A stretch of 28,541 nucleotides of DNA from a virus: positions 1 through 28,541 of the IMG/VR virus record IMGVR_UViG_3300039106_000273. The stretch is one strand, 5' to 3'. Each line of letters starts with the position of its first letter. Positions within the stretch are counted from its first letter, which is position 1. A program made the position numbers and the translations under genes. The notes beneath the pieces were generated by a model. It was not told the origin of the DNA. It made no database searches and was given only the letters and a program-made list of their open reading frames with translations. Of the stretch, positions 1 through 19,847 are shown one piece after another.

Positions 1-1308
1 GAAGATGCGGCAGGAGTGGGCAAAATTGCTGGAAAAGGGCAAGAAAACGACCCACGATACAAAACCAGTCTAACAGTGGATGTACATCCTGACACCGTAG
101 CTAAAGAAATTGCGGCATTTTTTCCCACCAAGCCTCCCAAAACAGGCCAGCACCATATAAAAGAAACTGATATGAAGAAAATTAACGAAGTCAACCCACA
201 CGATTACGACAGCGACGAAGACTATTACGCCGCATTAAGACGCAAGCCCCGAGCTGCCAGTGATGATTATGATCCTCCTGAACCAGCACCCAGCGCCGAG
301 GACGACTTCTACGACAAACAGGCTCGAGATCGTGAGCGACACAAACAACAGGTGCAAACCACATATTCAGACCATGAAGGTGTTGCACCCAACAATGAAA
401 AATACAACGGCATCTATACAATCAAAGCTGTAGACAAAGCCACAGGCGAAAACGAACTGTACAAGTGGAAAAACTTTCATCACGGCGCTAAAAAAGTAGT
501 AGACATCAAACAAGTGGAATCCAAAATGCCTGGAGGCCCTGTTGAGCTTACTGTGTACTATGTGGACAATCACAAGTATGGTATGTGGACACCCTGGAAG
601 GCGGAGGAAAGTCGAGATCCAGATCATCGTTTTTCCAATGAAGTGGATGGTGTAGATGCCAGAGTGAAACAGATGGCAATACATCGTGCCCGTGACATGG
701 AAGAAGGCACAGGGGAAGAATTTGAATTAGCAGGCGTGGGCGTAGCATACGAACTGGGCCGTCGAGCATACAAACAAGGCCAGACTATTAAAGATAATCC
801 GTACAGTGCTACACGAGAAGCTCGCAAATATGACGAGTGGGAAAAAGGTCTTGAGCGTGGCAAATGGGACGCAATTGAAGCTAGACGATTCCGCCACAGT
901 GTGGGAGAGCAAGGTGTGGCGGAAGACTATAATCCCGAATACGATGACGAAGCAGGTATGGCAGACAACAACCTAGAAACTCTAGAACGTGCTGTAGACG
1001 GAATTGATGAGCTAATCAATGCAGGTGATAACTTGCCCGAATGGTGCCAAGAAAAGATTGCAGTAGCTAAATCAATGTTGGTCACTGTGTGGGACTACAT
1101 GAAGAGTGAAGAAAACCGTGGCATGTCAGAGACATCAGACCAACCCACCATGCGCCGTGTTGCACATGAAAAACTAAGTGGCAATGGCGAAATGGTCAAG
1201 GTAGTAACCTACGAAGTACTCAACAGCAAGGGCGTAACAGTTAAAACAGGCATGAGCCGCGAGACAGCAGCCAGCCTAGTAAAGCATTTGAAACAACAAG
1301 GAAAATAA
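1..1308 (+). CDS. modular phage protein, probable virion-internal polyprotein (5' end outside window)
   Basis: The frame is open from base 1, so the gene almost certainly starts upstream; a GTG at 16 is possible but has no convincing ribosome site. The protein is hydrophilic and mosaic. An acidic, charged region covers about nt 180-370. A Tyr/Trp-rich segment follows at about nt 390-600. A segment at about nt 745-890 resembles ribosome modulation factor (GRRAYKQG, then DNPY, then W..GLERGKW). A GVAE tetrapeptide lies at nt 913-924. Next comes a helical module containing NLPEWCQEKI (about nt 960-1120), a pattern I recall from structural or internal proteins of marine T4-like phages. The C-terminal 34 residues match the C-terminus of the next gene. 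I infer a virion-internal protein cut by a prohead protease; no enzyme activity is evident. The next gene follows after 2 nt. Confidence 0.6.
   Translation, partial: EDAAGVGKIAGKGQENDPRYKTSLTVDVHPDTVAKEIAAFFPTKPPKTGQHHIKETDMKKINEVNPHDYDSDEDYYAALRRKPRAASDDYDPPEPAPSAEDDFYDKQARDRERHKQQVQTTYSDHEGVAPNNEKYNGIYTIKAVDKATGENELYKWKNFHHGAKKVVDIKQVESKMPGGPVELTVYYVDNHKYGMWTPWKAEESRDPDHRFSNEVDGVDARVKQMAIHRARDMEEGTGEEFELAGVGVAYELGRRAYKQGQTIKDNPYSATREARKYDEWEKGLERGKWDAIEARRFRHSVGEQGVAEDYNPEYDDEAGMADNNLETLERAVDGIDELINAGDNLPEWCQEKIAVAKSMLVTVWDYMKSEENRGMSETSDQPTMRRVAHEKLSGNGEMVKVVTYEVLNSKGVTVKTGMSRETAASLVKHLKQQGK
907..927 (+). repeat. GVAE junction repeat, copy 1
   Basis: The DNA caaggtgtggcggaag encodes QGVAE and joins the RMF-like module to the NLPEW module of the first protein. 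The same 16 bases recur in copy 2, and 15 of them in copy 3, with identical codons GGT GTG GCG GAA. Confidence 0.7.
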
Positions 1309-1310
1309 TT

Positions 1311-2873
1311 ATGAGAGAATCAGATATGATGCCCATGGCATTCCAACGTGGCCAGAGAGTTTTTGCACGAAGCACATTCGGTGAAATCTCTGGTACTGTA
1401 CAACGTGTGGAAGGCGACAAGGTATTCATCGTTAAAGACGATGGTGAAATGGATGTGTACCGAGCAGGCGAGTTGCGAGCAGACTCTGAAGGTCATGCTG
1501 GCGCCATGGCTGGTAACATGCGTGACATCAAGCAGGGCATCAAGGGCTTCTTTACTGGTAAAGAAAGCGTGGAAGAAGAATTCAACCCCACTGACTCAGT
1601 CAGCATGGATGTGCCACTGATGATCCGTATCATGGAATACGCTCGTGAAGATGCCAAGACTGACATGGCACTACATGATGTTGCTGAGAACCTGATTCGC
1701 CTAAGCAATGAAGGCCGCACACTGACAATGGATGACTATGATGCCATCGTAGGTTCAGTTGAACAGGATCGCCCTGTAGGACAAGAAGGCATGACTGAGA
1801 CTGCTTTACAAGGTAAAGAAGATCTTGAAGCCAAACGCCAAGCACTACAAGATTTAGAACGCGAGCCAGGTGCTGACCAAGAAGCTATTCGCCAGCGTAA
1901 ACTGGACTTGGAACGAGAAGCTCGTGCTCAAGGTGTGGCGGAAGGCTCATTGGCAGAAAAAATAAATCCTAAAACTCTGACCCGCGGGTTCCGTCAAGAA
2001 AAAGATATGGGCTGGTATACATTACAGGCTGTTGGTGATTTTGCAAGTCGCATGGCCGACGAACCGCCAACTATGGAAATTTACGCAATGTTAAAACCAG
2101 AGGCTGGCAAGCGTGACGGAAAGCAGATAGGACAATTAAGTCTTAAAATAGCGCAGGGCATGTTTCTCAAAGATAATCCAGGAGCAGAAGCATTAGTAGC
2201 AGGTGGAGTTGATGTTGATCCTGCATATCAACGCAAGGGTGTGGCGTCGGCAATGTATGCATTTGCCAAAGAATTAGGTAACGATGTTATAGCTAGTGTC
2301 GACCAATCAGACGATGCTAAAGCTATGTGGGCAGGCATGCGAGCAAAAGGTGTGGCGGAAGGCTTAGATGATAATCCAGTAGCAAGTGCTATTACTCGTC
2401 GTATCATGTTACAGCGAACAGACCTGTTAGCTAAACACGGTCCACAGAAGGTAGTGGCAGCAATTGACGAAGTTGCTGACTTTGTGGGAGATGTGGATGA
2501 AATTGGAAGCAGTGATGTATCAGGTTGGGTCAAACATGTAGAACAAATGCTGGGTAACATGAACGAACAAGGTGTAGCAGAAGTTGCTCCTAAAGGTTGG
2601 GAAGGCACAGTTAAAGCCATGAAGAAACATGGTGAAGTTGACAACCCATACGCACTAACCAACTATATGAAAAACAAAGGCTATCACAGTCACAAAACCA
2701 AGTCTGGTAAAGACAAACGTGAGAGTGCAGAGCCAGCACCATTCATCAAACGTGTTGCTGAAGGCCGTAAGGTCACATACAGTGTACACAATGCCCTGGG
2801 CGAGTGTGTACTAGATGGTCTGAGCCGTGACGCGGCAGCACTAAAATTGCAGGACCTGCGCGAAGGTAAATAA
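1311..2873 (+). CDS. modular phage polyprotein with embedded GNAT acetyltransferase
   Basis: A 520-residue mosaic protein starting at ATG 1311 with an AGGAAA site upstream. Residues 6-55 look like an SH3/KOW-type beta module (RGQRVFAR, then GTVQRVEGDKVFIVKDDGE). Residues 85-145 form a helical module (MEYAREDAKTDMALHDVAE). Residues 165-206 are a charged coiled coil. GVAE sits at 208-211. Residues 212-346 contain a GNAT acyl-CoA-binding pattern (VDPAYQRKGVASAMYAFAKE). GVAE recurs at 347-350, followed by a helical module (ITRRIMLQRTDLL). A third GVAE at 421-424 is followed by a GWEGTVKAMKKHGEVDNPYA module, and RVAE lies at 481-484. The last 36 residues resemble the C-terminus of the preceding gene. 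Cleavage after each VAE would release peptides of about 211, 139, 74, 60 and 36 residues. V-A-E resembles the T4 gp21 prohead protease consensus (Leu/Ile-x-Glu), so I infer a packaged polyprotein. The acetyl acceptor is unknown. Confidence 0.65.
   Translation: MRESDMMPMAFQRGQRVFARSTFGEISGTVQRVEGDKVFIVKDDGEMDVYRAGELRADSEGHAGAMAGNMRDIKQGIKGFFTGKESVEEEFNPTDSVSMDVPLMIRIMEYAREDAKTDMALHDVAENLIRLSNEGRTLTMDDYDAIVGSVEQDRPVGQEGMTETALQGKEDLEAKRQALQDLEREPGADQEAIRQRKLDLEREARAQGVAEGSLAEKINPKTLTRGFRQEKDMGWYTLQAVGDFASRMADEPPTMEIYAMLKPEAGKRDGKQIGQLSLKIAQGMFLKDNPGAEALVAGGVDVDPAYQRKGVASAMYAFAKELGNDVIASVDQSDDAKAMWAGMRAKGVAEGLDDNPVASAITRRIMLQRTDLLAKHGPQKVVAAIDEVADFVGDVDEIGSSDVSGWVKHVEQMLGNMNEQGVAEVAPKGWEGTVKAMKKHGEVDNPYALTNYMKNKGYHSHKTKSGKDKRESAEPAPFIKRVAEGRKVTYSVHNALGECVLDGLSRDAAALKLQDLREGK
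1926..1946 (+). repeat. GVAE junction repeat, copy 2
   Basis: The DNA caaggtgtggcggaagg encodes QGVAEG and separates the coiled-coil region from the GNAT module. It is identical to copy 1 over 16 bases. Confidence 0.7.
2343..2363 (+). repeat. GVAE junction repeat, copy 3
   Basis: The DNA aaaggtgtggcggaaggc encodes KGVAEG and closes the GNAT module on its C-terminal side. Codon choice is identical to copies 1 and 2. A related string (aagggtgtggcgtcgg, 2233-2248) inside the GNAT domain encodes KGVAS and is ordinary GNAT motif. Confidence 0.7.
2565..2585 (+). repeat. GVAE junction repeat, copy 4 (diverged)
   Basis: The DNA caaggtgtagcagaag encodes QGVAE with two synonymous changes (GTA GCA). 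It separates the ITRRIMLQ module from the GWEGTVKAM module. A weaker fifth site, RVAEG, lies at 2751-2765. Confidence 0.6.
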
Positions 2874-2876
2874 AAC

Positions 2877-3284
2877 ATGCGTAAGTTTATGACCATAGTA
2901 GAGGCGGCAGGCAAGAATTGTCCTGTTGCCACTCACGACATCAGTGTTAACATTAAGAATAGACAAGTGGCTATTGATGAGTACCACTATGGTCCTGCCA
3001 ATCCTGAGAAACCTGGCAAGTATTGGAAAGATGCAGCCAAGCGTTGGCGTACAGACGAAGATATCGTCAAAACCATGCTATGTGAGAATTGCGGAGCATT
3101 TGATGTCAGCGATGACATGCGAGAGTGTATTGAGGATGGCATCCGTGGAGATGACAAACCAATAGCAGATGCTAGAGCACCCATAGACCTGGCAGACCTG
3201 GGCTACTGTACATTTTTAAAATTCAAATGTGCAGGTACCCGAACCTGTAGCGCCTGGATCACTGGAGGTCCTATTGTCAAATAA
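2877..3284 (+). CDS. conserved phage protein with Cys motifs
   Basis: A 135-residue soluble protein that I recognise as a recurrent hypothetical family in marine T4-like phages. The N-terminus (MRKFMTIVEAAGK) includes I-V-E followed by A, which again fits the prohead-protease pattern. It is followed by a segment ending in GKYWKDAAKRW. Two cysteine clusters follow: CENCGAF near residues 64-70, and C-x(8)-C-x(4)-C near the C-terminus (LGYCTFLKFKCAGTRTCSAW). The cysteines could bind metal or an Fe-S cluster. It follows the polyprotein gene by 3 nt and its end overlaps the next start by 11 nt, so it is probably co-expressed with the virion genes. Function unknown. Confidence 0.7.
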   Translation: MRKFMTIVEAAGKNCPVATHDISVNIKNRQVAIDEYHYGPANPEKPGKYWKDAAKRWRTDEDIVKTMLCENCGAFDVSDDMRECIEDGIRGDDKPIADARAPIDLADLGYCTFLKFKCAGTRTCSAWITGGPIVK

Positions 3285-12983: not shown

Positions 12984-13730
12984 ATGACAGATAAAGAAAC
13001 AGCATTAGACGCAATGGCCGGTGACGGTGGGTATCGAGAAGGCAAATACCTCGGTGACTATCTTCGCTTTAAAATGAAACGTGAACAAAAACGTTTCTGG
13101 GCAGGAGACAACATTAGCGAATATCTTAATGAAGGTGACAAAGAACGATTAATCGATGAAGCCGCAGAAGCATTTGAAACGGTGCTTGATAGATTGCTTA
13201 TTGATCGTGAGAACGATCCTAATAGTAAAGGCACGGCCCGACGTCTGGCCAAGATGTACTTTAATGAAATTATGGGAGGTCGTTATGACCCAGCACCAGA
13301 TGCAACAGCGTTTCCCAACGACTCGCAGGACCGTTATGAAGGCATGCTGGTTGTTCGTAGTGAGCTTCGCAGTATGTGTAGCCATCATCACCAGCCCGTT
13401 AGTGGCGTTGCTTATATTGGTATTATTGCTGCCAGTAAACTTATTGGCCTTAGCAAATACACACGCATCGCACAGTGGTGTGCCCGCAGAGGTACTCTCC
13501 AGGAGGAACTTTGTAATGACATTGCTAGGGAGATACAAAAAGCCACAGGAGCCGAAGACCTAGGTGTCTATATCCAGGCTACACACGGATGCTGTGAGAA
13601 TCGCGGCATCATGGCACACAGTTCACTGACACAGACCACTGTGTTAAAAGGTCGCTTCATTGATGATCAGAGTACCAAGAAAGAGTTCTTTGACAACATC
13701 AAGATGCAACAGGAATTTGCACCACGTTAA
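12984..13730 (+). CDS. folE: GTP cyclohydrolase I
   Basis: A 248-residue enzyme converting GTP to 7,8-dihydroneopterin triphosphate, the first step towards folate and 7-deazaguanines. The C-terminal catalytic domain is intact: zinc ligands C132 and C203 with active-site H134 and H135 in SMCSHHHQP and THGCCENRG, then IGLSKYTRIAQWCARR, the QEEL segment and a SSLTQTTVLKGRF ending. The N-terminal region of about 80 residues is longer than in E. coli FolE (222 total). ATG 12984 has a TAGGAGA site. In phages folE usually accompanies queD and queE for DNA 7-deazaguanine synthesis, as here, although a folate role is also possible. Confidence 0.93.
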   Translation: MTDKETALDAMAGDGGYREGKYLGDYLRFKMKREQKRFWAGDNISEYLNEGDKERLIDEAAEAFETVLDRLLIDRENDPNSKGTARRLAKMYFNEIMGGRYDPAPDATAFPNDSQDRYEGMLVVRSELRSMCSHHHQPVSGVAYIGIIAASKLIGLSKYTRIAQWCARRGTLQEELCNDIAREIQKATGAEDLGVYIQATHGCCENRGIMAHSSLTQTTVLKGRFIDDQSTKKEFFDNIKMQQEFAPR

Positions 13731-13740
13731 GGAGAACACT

Positions 13741-13932
13741 ATGTCACAACTAAGCAAACTAGCAAAAGTAAATGAATCAATTACCATTAATCGTTACGAC
13801 AACGGCTGGATGGTGGAGATTGGCGGTCGTAATAAAAAAGACGACTGGAGTAACACCAAGACAGTATGTAATACAGAAGCTGAAGTGTTGGACCTGGTTA
13901 AAGAATACAACACGATCCCATTAGCTGACTAA
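13741..13932 (+). CDS. small conserved phage protein
   Basis: A 63-residue protein started at ATG 13741 behind AAGGAGA. An in-frame upstream ATG at 13660 lies inside folE and is not needed. The sequence (SITINRYDNGWMVEIGGRNK, then a Trp-Ser-Asn turn and KTVCNTEAEVLDLVKEY) suggests a small beta-hairpin plus helix domain. I recognise the pattern from phage hypothetical proteins but know no function. It lies between folE and another small gene in the same operon. Confidence 0.65.
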   Translation: MSQLSKLAKVNESITINRYDNGWMVEIGGRNKKDDWSNTKTVCNTEAEVLDLVKEYNTIPLAD

Positions 13933-13940
13933 GGTTCATC

Positions 13941-14168
13941 ATGGCAACACGCAAAAAGAAATTAGAGAATGTGCCAGCTAATGGTTGGCCCATTATTAAT
14001 CAAGGCACTCATCTTACTGTGAAAACATTTGAAGATGGGCACACAGAGCTAGTATGGGACGATGACCAACTGTTAAAAGAAGTTCAAGAAGCTATTGCGG
14101 CTTATGAGCTTGACCAACTGAAGCCAGCAGTACGTGCTAAAGTGGGAAATAAGGCTAAGAAAAAATGA
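13941..14168 (+). CDS. small conserved phage protein
   Basis: A 75-residue protein with a basic N-terminus (MATRKKKLE), a central PIINQGTHLTVKTFEDGH strand pair, an acidic LVWDDDQLLKEV helix and a very basic C-terminal tail (VRAKVGNKAKKK). The basic ends suggest nucleic acid contact, but no fold is recognised. The ribosome site is weak (AAGG at 13932-13935). It overlaps the phosphoribosyltransferase gene by 4 nt. Confidence 0.6.
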   Translation: MATRKKKLENVPANGWPIINQGTHLTVKTFEDGHTELVWDDDQLLKEVQEAIAAYELDQLKPAVRAKVGNKAKKK

Positions 14169-14689
14169 AGAAGCTATACTACAACTGGACTAATGTGCAA
14201 GGTGCAGTGCTCAACATCGCTCGTGATCTACAAAAAGACAACTGGCGCCCTGACTACATCGTGGGTCTGACTCGTGGTGGGCTGGTGCCTGCTGTCATGC
14301 TGAGTCAGTATCTAGAAGTACCCATGCATGCCTTAAAGGTCAGTCTACGTGACGATGGTGACACTGAAAGTAACACCTGGATGGCAGAAGATGCGTATGG
14401 ATATAATGGGGAAGTTGGTCAGGCAGCCGCCAAGAACATCTTGGTAGTGGACGACATCAACGACTCTGGGGCAACTATTGCCTGGATCAAACAGGATTGG
14501 CGAGCCAGTTGTTTGCCCAACGATGCACGTTGGGATCATGTGTGGGGTCAGAACGTGCGCTTTGCAGTGCTGACAAATAACCAAGCCAGTGATGAAATTG
14601 TGGACTACTGTGCTTGGGAAGTGAACAAAGGTGAAGAAGACTGCTGGTTGGTTTTCCCCTGGGAGGAGTTTTGGTACAATGGCAACTGA
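14165..14689 (+). CDS. type I phosphoribosyltransferase (xanthine/hypoxanthine type)
   Basis: A 174-residue enzyme with the PRPP-binding signature ILVVDDINDSGAT (residues 92-104, acidic pair D96 and D97) and an upstream VGLTRGGLVPAVMLSQYL loop typical of purine salvage transferases such as Gpt. The reaction would be a purine base plus PRPP giving a nucleotide and pyrophosphate; the exact base cannot be read from sequence. The hood region is short and ends with CWLVFPWEEFW, resembling the VFPWE tail of Gpt-like enzymes. It is coupled to the gene before (ATGA) and overlaps the HIT gene by 11 nt. Nucleotide salvage, or handling of an unusual base, would fit the neighbourhood. Confidence 0.85.
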   Translation: MKKLYYNWTNVQGAVLNIARDLQKDNWRPDYIVGLTRGGLVPAVMLSQYLEVPMHALKVSLRDDGDTESNTWMAEDAYGYNGEVGQAAAKNILVVDDINDSGATIAWIKQDWRASCLPNDARWDHVWGQNVRFAVLTNNQASDEIVDYCAWEVNKGEEDCWLVFPWEEFWYNGN

Positions 14690-15056
14690 TTTAGAAAAGG
14701 CATTACATGACAAACGAGCACCCTGGACAGAGATCGAATATCGAACACGAGATTATTGGGCGTTTAGGGATATCTATGCGGTTACCGAAGGGCATCTGTT
14801 ATTTGTGCCTACCACAGAAGACTTTGATGGAATTATGGAATGCTACCGAGCCGCCTACAAGTTTGGATTTGACGGCGTACAAAGTGGAAAATGGGATGCG
14901 TTTAACGTCGGACAAAACTGCGGCCAGGCTGCTGGCCAAACAGTGATGTATCCACACATCCACATGATACCACGACGCACAGGTGACATGTCTGATCCAC
15001 GTGGTGGCGTTCGTCACGTTATACCCGAACGCGGCAACTATAAACTATGGAAGTAG
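14679..15056 (+). CDS. HIT-family nucleotide hydrolase
   Basis: A 125-residue protein started at ATG 14679, which has a GGGAGGAG site about 10 nt upstream; the longer frame from 14631 has no such support. The HIT signature is at AGQTVMYPHIHMIPRR (H93 and H95), where H93 aligns with the catalytic nucleophile. The first His of the usual His triad is replaced by Tyr91. An N-region YWAFRDIYAVTEGHLLFVP matches the HIT beta strands, and GGVRHVIPERGNYK closes the domain. HIT proteins of this kind hydrolyse dinucleoside polyphosphates such as Ap4A or nucleoside phosphoramidates. It lies between a phosphoribosyltransferase and a PP-loop ATPase, suggesting a nucleotide-processing cluster. Confidence 0.8.
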   Translation: MATDLEKALHDKRAPWTEIEYRTRDYWAFRDIYAVTEGHLLFVPTTEDFDGIMECYRAAYKFGFDGVQSGKWDAFNVGQNCGQAAGQTVMYPHIHMIPRRTGDMSDPRGGVRHVIPERGNYKLWK

Positions 15057-15892
15057 GACATGCAGGTTGGTTGACTGTTGAGCTGACCACTGACACTACT
15101 TCTAGAGTCCAACTGGACTTTACTGAGCAGAGTATTCGGTCCATGCCATTCCAGGCAGCGGCTGACTACACTGCTCAAGTCATTGCGGCAAAATACAACA
15201 ATCTACATCTGGGTCTTAGTGGTGGACTGGACAGCGAATTCGTTGCCGCAGTATTACTACGCAATCAGATACCATTCACTCCAGTCATATTTGATTATGG
15301 AATGAACAGTGCCGAACTATGGTATGCCAAAGAGTTCTGTCGTCGGCACAATCTCAAGCCCCAAGTGACACAAATGGATCTGAGAGACATGTTGGCATTA
15401 TACCGACAGTGTTCTCTAGAACTGGGCTTTCTAGAAAGTTTTGAAATCAATGTGGTTAGTGTGGCGTTGCCATTGTTATATCCTGATGCACATTTTATAA
15501 CTGGCTATGGTGAACTATTGAGCAGTGCTAGTGATACATTAACTGGTAGCGAATATATTCCACGAGTGCTAGAAGCCATGCCACACGACTGGTTCCTGGA
15601 AGTGTATAGTAAACAGTCACATCCTGGTGCGTTTTTCAGTTACACACCTGAGCTGATGTATTCGTTTATCAACTCTATCAACTTTGACACCAACCTACAA
15701 ACTGCCAAGTCCAGTCTGTATAACGTGCCTAATAGACCTAAAATTGCAGCCAGTTTCTGGCATCACCGATATGGTGATGACCAGGCTGACACTATCTACA
15801 GCCGCATCATTCGCAGTGTTCATCGAGAAGAAATACCGCTGACGCTGGATTATGATGACTTTAAACATAAGTTTATCATTGACTCTCAGTGA
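15047..15892 (+). CDS. PP-loop ATPase (Asn-synthase/QueC-like)
   Basis: A 281-residue protein with a PP-loop SGGLDS at residues 58-63 (HLGLSGGLDSEFVAAVLL), followed by a Rossmann-like strand (FTPVIFDYGM) and a second adenylate-domain region (AHFITGYGELLSS). PP-loop enzymes adenylate a carboxylate or carbonyl and then add an amine or sulfur. QueC uses this chemistry to turn 7-carboxy-7-deazaguanine into preQ0, but QueC carries a C-terminal four-cysteine zinc site that is absent here. The overall look is closer to the C-terminal domain of asparagine synthetase. The next gene is queD, so a 7-deazaguanine role is possible. It overlaps the HIT gene by 10 nt. Confidence 0.65.
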   Translation: MEVGHAGWLTVELTTDTTSRVQLDFTEQSIRSMPFQAAADYTAQVIAAKYNNLHLGLSGGLDSEFVAAVLLRNQIPFTPVIFDYGMNSAELWYAKEFCRRHNLKPQVTQMDLRDMLALYRQCSLELGFLESFEINVVSVALPLLYPDAHFITGYGELLSSASDTLTGSEYIPRVLEAMPHDWFLEVYSKQSHPGAFFSYTPELMYSFINSINFDTNLQTAKSSLYNVPNRPKIAASFWHHRYGDDQADTIYSRIIRSVHREEIPLTLDYDDFKHKFIIDSQ

Positions 15893-15907
15893 TAAATAGT
15901 TTATACT
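15879..15907 (+). promoter_or_regulatory. sigma70 promoter for the queD operon
   Basis: TTGACT (15879-15884), 17 nt, then TATACT (15902-15907). The -35 lies inside the end of the PP-loop gene. A GATAAATAG string (15891-15899) in the spacer resembles a T4 late promoter core. Confidence 0.7.
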
Positions 15908-15996
15908 TTCAACTACAGCGGCCTTTCACGTACATTCACCCCGCTATACAAATTCTGCATGTCGTCAAACTTGCTACTTTTTAAAGGAGACTAGAG
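15908..15996 (+). promoter_or_regulatory. queD leader, possibly structured
   Basis: About 85 nt of untranslated leader, long for this compact genome, ending in AAAGGAGA. AGCGG (15917-15921) can pair with CCGCT (15941-15945). Loop bases 15929-15935 can pair with 15959-15964 (with one bulged base), giving an H-type pseudoknot outline. I do not see a match to the preQ1-I consensus, and the pairing could be chance. Confidence 0.3.
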
Positions 15997-16551
15997 ATGG
16001 CAAAATCCTCAACAGCTGATTTAATCAGACACTTGGAAGACAATCTTCCGTATTACGGTCCTGTTAATTACAAATACACCAGCACTAAAGAATATGTGGA
16101 CGCATTTCCCTGCGCCTATCGTCAATGGCGTGCTGATAGTCATTGCAACTTAAATCACGGTTACTCATTCAGCATGAAGTTCTATTTTGGGACTAATGAT
16201 CTGGATGCACGTAACTGGGCTGCCGACTACGGCGGTCTAAAAGAACTTAAACAGATTCTGGAGTCACAGTTTGATCACACCACACTGGTGGCAGCTGATG
16301 ATCCTGAACTGGAGTTTTACAAAGAAATGGAACGCCGCAACTTGGCCAAGCTGACTATTTTGCCAGCACTAGGCTGCGAGGCGCTGGCTGACATGTTATA
16401 CAAATTTGTAAACGGCGTTTATATTCCTGACAACTGGGGTCCTGGAGAAGCAGAACGTTTGTGGTGCTATCGTGTGGAAGTTCGCGAAACACAAGCCAAC
16501 ATGGCTTTCCGCGAAGGTCACCGCGAGTGGAAGGAAGACCTGTTTGCATGA
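15997..16551 (+). CDS. queD: 6-carboxytetrahydropterin synthase (QueD/PTPS family)
   Basis: A 184-residue T-fold enzyme expected to convert dihydroneopterin triphosphate to 6-carboxytetrahydropterin. Family marks are FPCAYRQW, SHCNLNHGYSFSMKFYFG (C50, H54), DARNWAADYGGLKELK, the catalytic FDHTTL (D93, H94), DDPEL, GCEALADMLY and the final strand YRVEVRETQANMA with its Glu. It belongs to the longer HGY-type branch rather than the E. coli QueD type (121 residues). At position 41 this protein has Tyr where I expect the first zinc His (FPCAH), a one-base change (TAT for CAT). Metal binding may therefore be altered. It has its own promoter and AAAGGAGA site. Confidence 0.85.
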   Translation: MAKSSTADLIRHLEDNLPYYGPVNYKYTSTKEYVDAFPCAYRQWRADSHCNLNHGYSFSMKFYFGTNDLDARNWAADYGGLKELKQILESQFDHTTLVAADDPELEFYKEMERRNLAKLTILPALGCEALADMLYKFVNGVYIPDNWGPGEAERLWCYRVEVRETQANMAFREGHREWKEDLFA

Positions 16552-16760
16552 TTAATAAAGAATGGTTAGATAAAGTTGTACTCAGTGCCACCCTATACAA
16601 CAATCAAAGACTTCATACTGATTTTCAAGAAGATGAGATTTTAAAGTTTGTTGAATGGATGCATCAACAATATGGTATTGCTTACGAAAAACCAAAAGCA
16701 ACTCATATAAACACTCCAGAGAAATTACAACAACTAAAGGATCAAAATGAAAAAACGTAA
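16548..16760 (+). CDS. small hypothetical protein
   Basis: A 70-residue protein whose ATG overlaps the queD stop (ATGA). It is mostly helical ([35 protein letters not shown]) with a polar C-terminus, and is slightly more AT-rich than its neighbours. Its last 14 nt overlap the isocitrate lyase gene, so it is translated between the two. No family recognised. Confidence 0.55.
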
Positions 16761-17955
16761 CTATACTCAAGAAGATGTACGTAAGCTACAAGGCTCACTA
16801 CAAATTGAACATACTCTAGCCAAACGTGGCGCATACAAATTGCGTGAATTGCTGGCAAATGAACCATTCGTCGCCACCCTGGGTGCATATAATGGACAGA
16901 CCGCAGTGCAACATGCCAAGGCTGGATTAAAGGCAATCTACTTGTCAGGCTGGCAAGTGGCTGCTGCCAACAACACAGCCAACACCACCTACCCAGACCA
17001 GTCGCTATATCCAGTGGACTCAGTGCCTCGTGTGGTCAAAGGTATCAACAATGCTTTCCGCCGTGCTGACCAGATTGAAACACTGGAAGGCAATGCGACT
17101 ACAGATTATTTCTTGCCCATTGTGGCCGATGCAGAAGCTGGCTTTGGTGGTGCGTTGAACGCATACGAACTAATGACGGCCATGATTGAAGCAGGTGCCG
17201 CAGGCGTACACTTTGAAGACCAGTTGGCGTCAGAAAAGAAATGCGGTCACTTGGGTGGCAAGGTACTAGTGCCCACAAGCCAGATGATTCGCACACTAAA
17301 TGCCGCACGTCTAGCGGCAGATGTTGCTGGTGTTGATACTGTTATCATGGCACGTACTGATGCAGAAGCCGCAACACTGATTACATCAGACCATGATCCA
17401 TTGGATAAGGAATTTATCATTAATGAACGCACTGAAGAAGGCTTTTACAAATTTAAAAATGGTATTGATGCTTGTATTAGCAGAGGTCTTGCTTATGCCC
17501 CTTACGCTGATCTCCTTTGGTTTGAGACTTCGACTCCTGATCTCGTACAAGCTAGAAAGTTCGCCGATGCTATCCACGCACAGTACCCTGATCAAATGCT
17601 TGCTTATAATTGTAGTCCTAGTTTTAATTGGCGTAAGCATCTGACTCGTGAAGAATGTGTGGCATTCCAATCAGAGCTGGGCAAGATGGGTTACAAGTTC
17701 CAGTTCATTACACTGGCTGGTTTCCACAGTCTAAACTTAGCATCATTCAGTCTAGCAAAAGCATACGCAGAAGAAGGTATGGGTGCATACTCAGATCTTC
17801 AACAACTGGAATTCGCCACAGGTGCTGACAGCAAGTTTACTACTGTTCGTCATCAGCGTGAAGCTGGTGTCCCATACTTTGATGCTATTAGCGTGGCAGT
17901 TGGTGCTACATCAACGGCAGCTATGGCTCATTCTACTGAGCATGATCAGTTCTAA
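16747..17955 (+). CDS. aceA: isocitrate lyase
   Basis: A 402-residue enzyme of the ICL/PEP mutase superfamily, which cleaves isocitrate to glyoxylate and succinate. The active-site loop [14 protein letters not shown] is complete, with catalytic C166. Other ICL hallmarks are [24 protein letters not shown] (metal-binding Asp), [49 protein letters not shown] and the terminal [16 protein letters not shown]. coli AceA has 434 residues, so the core is full length and no frameshift is seen. Codon use changes between about 17390 and 17640 (CTT/CTC Leu, GCT Ala), unlike both flanks. It lies between queD and the YhhQ-type transporter. In infection it could open a glyoxylate bypass; a related lyase activity is also possible. 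Confidence 0.92.
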
Positions 17956-17981
17956 AATTATCTTAACTAAAAGGAGAAACT

Positions 17982-18605
17982 ATGTTAGATAAAATCTTCG
18001 CCGGTGTAGACCGTGCATTAGCGTATAAATTGATGTTGGCACACATCATTATTATTGCAATCAGCAATTACATTGTTCAATTTAAGATTGATATTGGTGG
18101 ACACCCACTGTCCATTGCGGCCTTTACATTCCCATTGGTAGTTGTACTGACTGACCTGACTGTGCGTTTGATCGGTAAAGAGACTGGCCGTGCAGTAATT
18201 GGCCTGGCATTTATCCCAGCTATCATTGTCAGTATCCTGATAGTGTTGGCAGGTGGTGCTCCCGAGTCTGTTGCGTTCCGCATCGGCCTAGGATCAGGCA
18301 TTGCTTACTTTGTCAGTAACCTGTTGGACGTCTATGTGTTCCAGTATTTCCGTGAGAAGTACACTGGCACCTGGTACATTGCACCCACACTGAGTGCTAT
18401 TGTGTCCACATTCTTTGACACTTACACATTCTTCTTTACAGCGTTTGCTGGTGGTGCTGATCCATTCATGTCAGAAAACTGGCACATTGTGGCTACCAAC
18501 AACAGCATCAGTAAAATCATTGTCAGCTTGGTGGTAATTTTGCCAGCTTATGGTATGTTGCTGAACTATCTGACCAAGAAGGTCGATGCTGAAAAGGCTG
18601 CGTAA
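17982..18605 (+). CDS. yhhQ: queuosine precursor transporter (YhhQ/QPTR family)
   Basis: A 207-residue membrane protein with about six hydrophobic segments. Family features are the second segment ending in FTFPLVVVLTDLTVRLIGKETGRAVI, the small-residue run GLGSGIAYFVSNLLDVYVFQYFREK, and TLSAIVSTFFDTYTFF, matching the DUF165/YhhQ pattern (LTDLxxExxGxxxAR; D..VF...R). E. coli YhhQ imports preQ0 and preQ1. In this phage it could feed scavenged 7-deazaguanine to the DpdA-like enzyme and bypass missing biosynthetic steps. It has a strong AAAGGAGA site, and the next small gene starts inside its last 20 nt. Confidence 0.85.
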   Translation: MLDKIFAGVDRALAYKLMLAHIIIIAISNYIVQFKIDIGGHPLSIAAFTFPLVVVLTDLTVRLIGKETGRAVIGLAFIPAIIVSILIVLAGGAPESVAFRIGLGSGIAYFVSNLLDVYVFQYFREKYTGTWYIAPTLSAIVSTFFDTYTFFFTAFAGGADPFMSENWHIVATNNSISKIIVSLVVILPAYGMLLNYLTKKVDAEKAA

Positions 18606-18756
18606 TATTTGGAGACTCTGGGCCAAGGCCCTGGGTGAAAAGTCGGGTGATACGGATCAGGAATCTGACCGTATTGCCTACATTAGAACTGCCATTGTGT
18701 TATCCTACATAGTGACTAATTGTTTTATTGTAGCAGGCGTTATAAGGCACTGGTAA
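18586..18756 (+). CDS. 56-residue membrane protein overlapping yhhQ
   Basis: A short gene starting at ATG 18586 inside the end of yhhQ in another frame (20 nt overlap). It has a basic amphipathic N-terminus (MLKRLRNIWRLWAKALGEK), a charged middle and one transmembrane helix (IRTAIVLSYIVTNCFIVAGV) ending in IRHW. I recognise this layout from small phage proteins found near other tiny membrane proteins. The stop is directly followed by the ATG of the next gene. Positive-inside reasoning puts the N-terminus in the cytoplasm. Function unknown. Confidence 0.65.
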   Translation: MLKRLRNIWRLWAKALGEKSGDTDQESDRIAYIRTAIVLSYIVTNCFIVAGVIRHW

Positions 18757-18987
18757 ATGAGCTCAGATCAACCAAATACAAAAGAATTCATACTAAAATG
18801 GCTGGCAAATATTGTAATTGTGGCTGCCGCGGTTGCCACAGCATTTGACATCCACCCCTGGAATAAAGTATTATTCCTATTAGGCAGTCTATTATGGACT
18901 GTGGTCGGCATCATGTGGAGACAGCCCAGTTTGTGGACGCTGAACGCATTTTGCGCTATATTATACATCATAGGTTTAAGTAAATGA
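18757..18987 (+). CDS. small two- to three-helix membrane protein
   Basis: A 76-residue protein starting at the base after the previous stop and ending in an ATGA overlap with queE. Hydrophobic helices are LKWLANIVIVAAAVATAF, NKVLFLLGSLLWTVVGIMW and WTLNAFCAILYIIGL. The spacing resembles a small family of phage inner-membrane proteins of unknown function. Being locked translationally to queE suggests shared expression rather than a proven shared pathway. Confidence 0.65.
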   Translation: MSSDQPNTKEFILKWLANIVIVAAAVATAFDIHPWNKVLFLLGSLLWTVVGIMWRQPSLWTLNAFCAILYIIGLSK

Positions 18988-19847
18988 AAATCAAAGTAAG
19001 CGAACTATTCTACAGTCTACAAGGTGAAGGTAGATTTGTGGGTGTGCCCAGTGTGTTTTTACGCACATTTGGATGCAACTTCACATGCAGTGGCTTTGGC
19101 TGTGCGCCTGGTGAAAAGAGCACTGAAGCGGACGACATTGCCAAGAACATTGAACTATACAAGAGCATTGCAGATGTGCCACTGGCCAAGACCGGCTGTG
19201 ACAGTTTTATCAGCTGGCATCCAGCATACAAGGATCTAAGCCCCACATATGAAAATCCCGACCTGGTCAAGATGATGTTGGACCTGGTTCCAGAAAACAA
19301 TTGGCTACAGAGCAACGGCAACGATGTGCATCTGGTTGTCACAGGCGGAGAGCCACTACTGGGCTGGCAACGTGCTTATGCTGAATTGCTGGAATTGCCT
19401 GGCATGATCAATCTCAAGAACCTGACATTTGAAACCAATGGCACACAGGATCTACAGGAAAAGTTTTCCGAATACATCTTTAACCGCTGGACTAAACCTG
19501 GCAAGCGAAACGAGCTGACATTTAGCGTCAGTGCCAAACTGTCAGCATCGGGTGAGAAGTGGGAAGAAGCCATCCGTCCTGACGTTGTAGTGGACTACCA
19601 GAGCTACGGACACACATACCTAAAGTTTGTGGTCGAGACTGATGAACACTTTACAGAAGTAGATCAGGCAGTTAGCGAGTATCGCGCCGCTGGATTCTAT
19701 GGCCCAGTGTTTGTCATGCCCATTGGCGGTACTGTGGAAAGTTATGATAATAATCGTGTGCGTGTTGCTGACTGGGCACTGCGACGTGGTTACAACTATA
19801 GCCCACGTCTACATGTGGACATTTGGAAGAACGGATGGGCCAAGTGA
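18984..19847 (+). CDS. queE: 7-carboxy-7-deazaguanine synthase (radical SAM)
   Basis: A 287-residue radical SAM enzyme that ring-contracts 6-carboxytetrahydropterin to 7-carboxy-7-deazaguanine. The N-terminus VSELFYSLQGEGRFVGVPSV is the classic QueE opening, followed by LRTFGCNFTC (C31, C35). VVTGGEPLLGW is the SAM-binding GGE motif, and LTFETNGTQ and FSVSAKLSASGE follow in family order. The third cluster cysteine is not in the usual CX3CX2C place: C40 (CX3CX4C) or C72 (KTGCDSF) must serve. QueE proteins with widened cluster loops are known, so activity is plausible. The gene is longer than E. coli QueE (223) and sits among small membrane proteins. Confidence 0.9.
   Translation: MKIKVSELFYSLQGEGRFVGVPSVFLRTFGCNFTCSGFGCAPGEKSTEADDIAKNIELYKSIADVPLAKTGCDSFISWHPAYKDLSPTYENPDLVKMMLDLVPENNWLQSNGNDVHLVVTGGEPLLGWQRAYAELLELPGMINLKNLTFETNGTQDLQEKFSEYIFNRWTKPGKRNELTFSVSAKLSASGEKWEEAIRPDVVVDYQSYGHTYLKFVVETDEHFTEVDQAVSEYRAAGFYGPVFVMPIGGTVESYDNNRVRVADWALRRGYNYSPRLHVDIWKNGWAK

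Follow-up and report, generated by a model that had tools for sequence, protein, structure and literature searches.

The closest described counterparts of the proteins considered here are the internal head proteins IPI, IPII, IPIII and Alt of phage T4. The features in common are a short N-terminal leader that ends in hydrophobic-x-Glu (here on ORF3 and many relatives), varied small cargo and an S77 protease in the genome (here in relatives that have head genes) (PMC9026906, PMC3012670). The cleavage consensus of the T4 protease gp21 is L/I-X-E (PMC9026906). However, each T4 internal protein is a single unit cut at its ends, whereas here many units share a chain that has internal sites and is marked by a DNA seam. 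A second parallel is provided by the phage polyvalent proteins, which are multi-domain, are thought to be packaged and injected, carry enzyme domains, GNAT among them (Iyer et al., 2017, PMC5512222), and were likened to viral polyproteins by their authors. Their release is attributed to embedded peptidase domains, a frequent though not universal feature, whereas a profile search found no peptidase family in ORF1, ORF2 or eight relatives, and a prohead protease acting in trans is proposed instead. (A HELVHH stretch was spotted by eye in one relative, L007.) The third parallel is with SPN3US and phiKZ, where a gp21-type protease cuts after x-x-Glu, with several cuts per propeptide and abundant ejected proteins (PMC10052503, PMC9026906). 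There the cuts strip propeptides from single proteins, and the SPN3US motif is A-x-E. Finally, the cyanophage T4 GC0119 proteins (Syn9 gp114, an S-E7 structural protein and S-CREM2 gp160-like proteins) have modules and hydrophobic-x-Glu junctions in common with the present chains, although they contain fewer modules than the largest of these. Some have been detected in virions or annotated as structural. No account of them as processed cargo chains was found in the open-licence papers searched; nor did these papers describe GVAE proteins, or any phage cargo polyprotein that a prohead protease cuts.

The locus lies at the start of an IMG/VR contig of 31,760 bases, the first 28,541 of which form the window. 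The contig start cuts the 5' end of ORF1, and so its N-terminus is off the contig. Start codons were set by a simple rule, which makes the start calls rough. The features, by window position, are as follows.

1-1308 (+): ORF1, predicted cargo polyprotein, 435 residues left; open frame, modules match different proteins elsewhere
178-189 (+): KINE junction before the NPHDYDSDEDYY module; matched in the alignment by KKLNE and MRINE ahead of this module
721-912 (+): RMF-like module of ORF1, weak (PF04957, E 0.023, below cut-off); homolog in L024
913-924 (+): GVAE junction (ORF1 residues 305-308) before M2; DNA seam roughly 908-927
925-1119 (+): module M2 (NPEYDDEAGMADNNL); relatives encoded in 105 IMG/VR stretches
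1120-1131 (+): GMSE junction; aligned with GVAE in L031
1311-2873 (+): ORF2, predicted cargo polyprotein, 520 residues; open frame, modules occur separately elsewhere
1566-1577 (+): SVEE, tentative junction near the start of the FNPTDS module; exact Glu uncertain
1788-1799 (+): GMTE junction before the KEDLEAKRQ module; stand-alone homologs start MRDLLSKLDAIVSE ahead of the same module
1932-1943 (+): GVAE junction before the GNAT module of ORF2; DNA seam roughly 1927-1946
1944-2348 (+): predicted GNAT acetyltransferase module of ORF2 (PF00583, 22.2 bits, cut-off 20.7; model pLDDT 85.7)
2349-2360 (+): GVAE junction before M1 in ORF2; DNA seam roughly 2344-2363
2361-2570 (+): module M1 (NPVASAITRRI) of ORF2; relatives encoded in 158 IMG/VR stretches
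2571-2582 (+): GVAE junction (GGTGTAGCAGAA) before the APKGW module of ORF2; Glu precedes this module in nine other contexts listed
2583-2750 (+): APKGW module of ORF2; 22 domain matches in other loci
2751-2762 (+): RVAE, tentative junction, in frame
2877-3284 (+): ORF3, predicted single-module cargo protein with leader MRKFMTIVE; homologs alone or inside chains
2892-2903 (+): TIVE, end of the ORF3 leader; its Glu aligns with that of chain VAE junctions

Elsewhere in the window, a full-length isocitrate lyase gene (16747-17955, +; NF011645, 676 bits, cut-off 562) is a possible auxiliary metabolic gene of the glyoxylate shunt. Genes for GTP cyclohydrolase I, a QueC-like protein (weak), a QueE-like protein and a queuosine-precursor transporter are clustered at 12984-19847 (+), which suggests 7-deazaguanine metabolism or DNA modification.

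Comparison with relatives makes it probable that ORF1 and ORF2 are internal-protein-like cargo polyproteins of a large T4-like phage that are cut in trans as the head matures and whose modules are reshuffled at a DNA seam. Each module would correspond to a T4-type internal head protein. N-terminal targeting sequences would bring the modules to the prohead core, where an S77 (gp21-type) prohead protease would cut after the Glu of hydrophobic-x-Glu and free them. Once freed, the pieces, among them a GNAT-type enzyme, would be carried in the head and pass into the host together with the DNA. Modules would be swapped by recombination at a DNA element of about 20 bp that encodes the commonest junction.

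The four in-frame GVAE copies and the RVAE lie exactly where the initial annotation had placed them. Four copies of GVAE in the 955 residues of ORF1 plus ORF2 compare with a mean of 0.06 in 20,000 residue shuffles (maximum 3), and the motif is absent from the remaining 7,633 residues of called protein in the window. Three of the four sites share 13 identical nucleotides (GGTGTGGCGGAAG), which have no further copy in the contig. KINE, GMSE and GMTE are additional hydrophobic-x-Glu junctions, while the RMF-like segment of ORF1 is preceded by GTGE, with Thr at P3. A module search found no homolog of the segment after RVAE.

What lies between the junctions? The modules of ORF1 and ORF2 each resemble different proteins, and thus several unrelated domains share one polypeptide. 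By profile, model and fold, the ORF2 segment at 1944-2348 is predicted to be a GNAT-type acetyltransferase: the matches listed for its model in the PDB are predominantly acetyltransferases (best E 1.8e-3, probability 1.0, TM-scores 0.4-0.5). Whole ORF2 gave almost no matches in PHROGs and INPHARED, whereas searches with single modules succeeded. A DNA pattern for the GVAE motif is present in at least 119 IMG/VR stretches, and the frame that reads QGVAE is the longest open frame in 195 of the 196 matches listed. Relatives of the WSQKYK module are encoded in 353 stretches; like those of M1 and M2, they were retrieved by the module's own peptide and not by the GVAE motif. Some relatives have seven GVAE copies per protein with unrelated modules between them. 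Diversity is high (253 segments fall into 183 clusters), and cytidylyltransferase-like modules are among those carried, as are DUF6321, DUF5661 and others. Recurring basic tails, DPYFESLTNKLDRLKKK and KLPKRVLPKKRKK, close many of the chains (C-termini in L019, L058, L038 and L084), and KLPKRVLPKKRKK matches virion structural families of PHROGs.

If the junctions are protease sites, which of their positions are constrained? At a fixed offset upstream of the WSQKYK module, P1 is Glu in all 74 unique contexts and P3 is V, I, L, M or F in 71, although only 17 of the 74 read GVAE. P2 and P4-P8 are variable (entropies of about 2.5 to 3.5 bits). The same test on the DWQK module gives Glu at P1 in 20/20 and a hydrophobic P3 in 19/20. 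Before M1, relatives have GVAE, GLAE, GVEE, DLDE, DMAE, NVIE, SMTE, GIPE and others. This retention of a hydrophobic P3 and a P1 Glu among free neighbours is the pattern expected from gp21-like specificity. Val at P3 falls outside the published T4 consensus, yet leaders with Val at P3 exist. Among copies of the DNA seam with one changed nucleotide, changes in the Glu codon are synonymous in 22 cases and non-synonymous in 1, compared with 14 and 15 in the Ala codon; Val is altered mostly to Met or Leu. This count was restricted to loci fetched without the motif, and those fetched by a GAG-permitting pattern were left out because they inflated synonymous P1 changes. Judging from these counts, the Glu codon of the seam is under purifying selection. 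The proposed resemblance of GVAE to a T4-type prohead-protease site is thus supported for the Glu at P1 and the hydrophobic residue at P3, but not for GVAE itself as the recognition sequence. As far as the alignments go, GVAE is one version of hydrophobic-x-Glu and at the same time a conserved DNA element, which the initial annotation had missed.

Another clue comes from modules that stand first in a protein. WSQKYK-type modules occur not only in chains but also directly after a short leader (MKANEFITE|KWSQKYK, MKINEVITE|A, MRAQEFITE|S). Stand-alone versions of M2 (MKTNDIVE|N), of the GNAT module (MRISEIITE|EINPDIL, MRAQEFVTE|TINTDIL) and of the KEDLEAKRQ module (MRDLLSKLDAIVSE|T) have such leaders as well. 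The annotation of T4 IPII has its ten-residue leader, MKTYQEFIAE, taken off to give the mature protein. When the leader MKANEFITE|K is set against the chain QGVAE|E, the Glu is in the equivalent place, and by alignment the Glu that ends a leader and the Glu of GVAE occupy equivalent positions. ORF3 starts MRKFMTIVE|AAGKNCP, a stand-alone homolog has MRNLINIME before A, and in other contigs the same module sits inside a chain after QAVAE|D or ESVAE|S. ORF3 is a predicted member of the same system as ORF1 and ORF2; it has, as do many relatives, a targeting-like leader ending in a putative gp21-type site. No recognisable targeting sequence was found at the N-terminus of ORF2. With a loose pattern and the rough start calls, leader-like N-termini are present in 89/176 GVAE genes vs 495/2,931 others (p=7e-23), so that about half of GVAE genes are without one. 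The enrichment is weaker with a tighter pattern (28/176 vs 224/2931, p=5e-4), and a stricter pattern, run on six whole contigs, matches 7/18 GVAE genes vs 95/1,799 others (p=3e-5). Two stand-alone GNAT genes with targeting-like leaders (L240, 13717-14127; L007, 2906-3367) are on contigs that also bear GVAE chains.

Perhaps each chain is packaged uncut and injected in one piece, in the manner of multi-domain polyvalent proteins, with hydrophobic-x-Glu serving only as interdomain linkers or repeated core-binding signals. Phage polyvalent proteins can have up to 15 domains and some are transferred uncut. Nevertheless, an absolute P1 Glu and a hydrophobic P3 with free neighbours fit a protease rather than a linker, and the junction Glu aligns with the end of a targeting leader, which makes transfer of whole chains unlikely.

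The processed-cargo reading calls for a prohead protease acting in trans. None was seen in the contig of the window, a 31.8-kb fragment without recognised head genes. Among IMG/VR contigs of relatives, Peptidase_S77 is above cut-off in 7/35 of a first set and 19/40 of a second, and in 7/7 and 19/20, respectively, of those that bear Gp23. It was also found in each of the three contigs exceeding 300 kb in the group closest to the window by DNA polymerase. The sole Gp23-bearing contig without S77 in the second set has a 24.8-bit Gp23 fragment. Neither S77 nor Gp23 was found in the large GVAE contigs G015 and G017, perhaps because they are incomplete, and in the 735-kb phage LR756501, a carrier of one ORF2 module, S77 matches stay below cut-off. 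In the Gp23-bearing contigs, the capsid precursors show LLE|N, LLE|G, ILE|N or LxE|N/S ahead of the conserved domain, and their top matches listed are 64-70% identical capsid proteins of jumbo phages such as PA5oct, CBB and GAP32. The DNA-polymerase gene that defines the nearest relatives has, in many of them, GVAE chains some 1 to 8 kb upstream.

Are such proteins found in virions? Published mass spectrometry of purified virions of S-CREM2, a cultured cyanophage, detected gp137 and gp160 (PMC10665884, Table 3). gp137 shares modules with 29 GVAE proteins and gp160 with 45; the DWQK module of gp137 is joined at MNE|D where lake phages have GVAE|D. The S-CREM2 virion proteins gp6, gp13, gp14, gp136 and gp154 start with leaders such as MKNFSSFLTE|A. 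A leader pattern with Phe at P4 matches 7/49 virion proteins vs 3/165 others (p=0.0016); a baseplate protein, probably a chance match, is among the seven. A second, looser pattern matches 8/49 vs 10/165 (p=0.037). In cyanophage SynMITS9220M01, a complete protein of 39 residues consists of a leader and a WSxKYK module and nothing else. The Cas9-like nuclease gp12 of S-CREM2 (L540, 7704-10313), also detected in virions, has a leader-like stretch, FASFMAE|A, near its N-terminus and may be head cargo too.

What if the chains are scaffold or core proteins, chopped at maturation and mostly lost from the head? This is the fate of T4 core proteins gp22 and gp67, which gp21 cuts at several sites and whose products mostly exit. 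A scaffold is quite unlikely, however, as the modules include enzyme folds and are so diverse, and as homologs persist in mature S-CREM2 virions. Large T4-like lake phages instead appear to chain many small cargo proteins with cut sites for the head protease between them; for the phage of the window, we infer cleavage, packaging and injection.

The commonest junction is conserved as DNA too. Codon usage would lead one to expect GGTGTGGCGGAA in 0.7% of the 308 unique GVAE sites (from loci fetched without the motif), yet it encodes GVAE in 62%. GCG makes up 81% of Ala codons at GVAE sites (background 10%) and GTG 80% of Val codons (background 20%). In 287 dissimilar contexts, conservation extends from about -5 to +14 and then drops to background, which describes an element of about 20 bp with the consensus AGCAAGGTGTGGCGGAAGGC. 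In GTDB bacteria, the seam gave 26 single matches in 257 Gb, mostly in unrelated bacteria and near chance. That GVAE is a purely selfish or recombinogenic DNA repeat, in frame by happenstance and with no function for the protein sequence, would account for conservation beyond codon usage, but this is most improbable given that hydrophobic-x-Glu is kept at junctions without the element, that selection acts on the Glu codon and that every GGTGTGGCGGA copy counted across six contigs (28/28) reads in frame.

Stretches of homology between proteins begin or break off near GVAE more often than expected: 14% of starts and 16% of ends fall within six residues of it, vs 5% at random positions. Breaks peak sharply at QG and at E, although most breaks between GVAE proteins fall away from GVAE. 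The WSQKYK module has five different left clusters and three different right clusters as neighbours. Modularity and reshuffling at GVAE sites, as the initial annotation had supposed, are supported by the metagenome module search, the break peaks and these varied neighbours. Recombination at shared short homology would be the simplest account of the exchange. A bolder version is that the seam, about 20 bp long, acts as a dedicated boundary between cassettes, at which T4-like phages recombine in frame, the same bases serving as crossover homology and prohead-protease site, with a shared combinatorial pool of injected cargo. This is offered tentatively, at slightly under an even chance.

One gene could, on the processed-cargo reading, bring an exchangeable set of proteins into the host. 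If this is true, the T4 internal-protein principle extends from single proteins to polyproteins, and a way is suggested for jumbo phages to load many host-takeover or anti-defence proteins and to renew them. Many hypothetical proteins would become predicted cargo with defined ends that can be checked by mass spectrometry, and new phage effectors could be sought by a simple rule. The seam, in turn, would show in a concrete instance how one set of bases can encode both recombination homology and protein processing.
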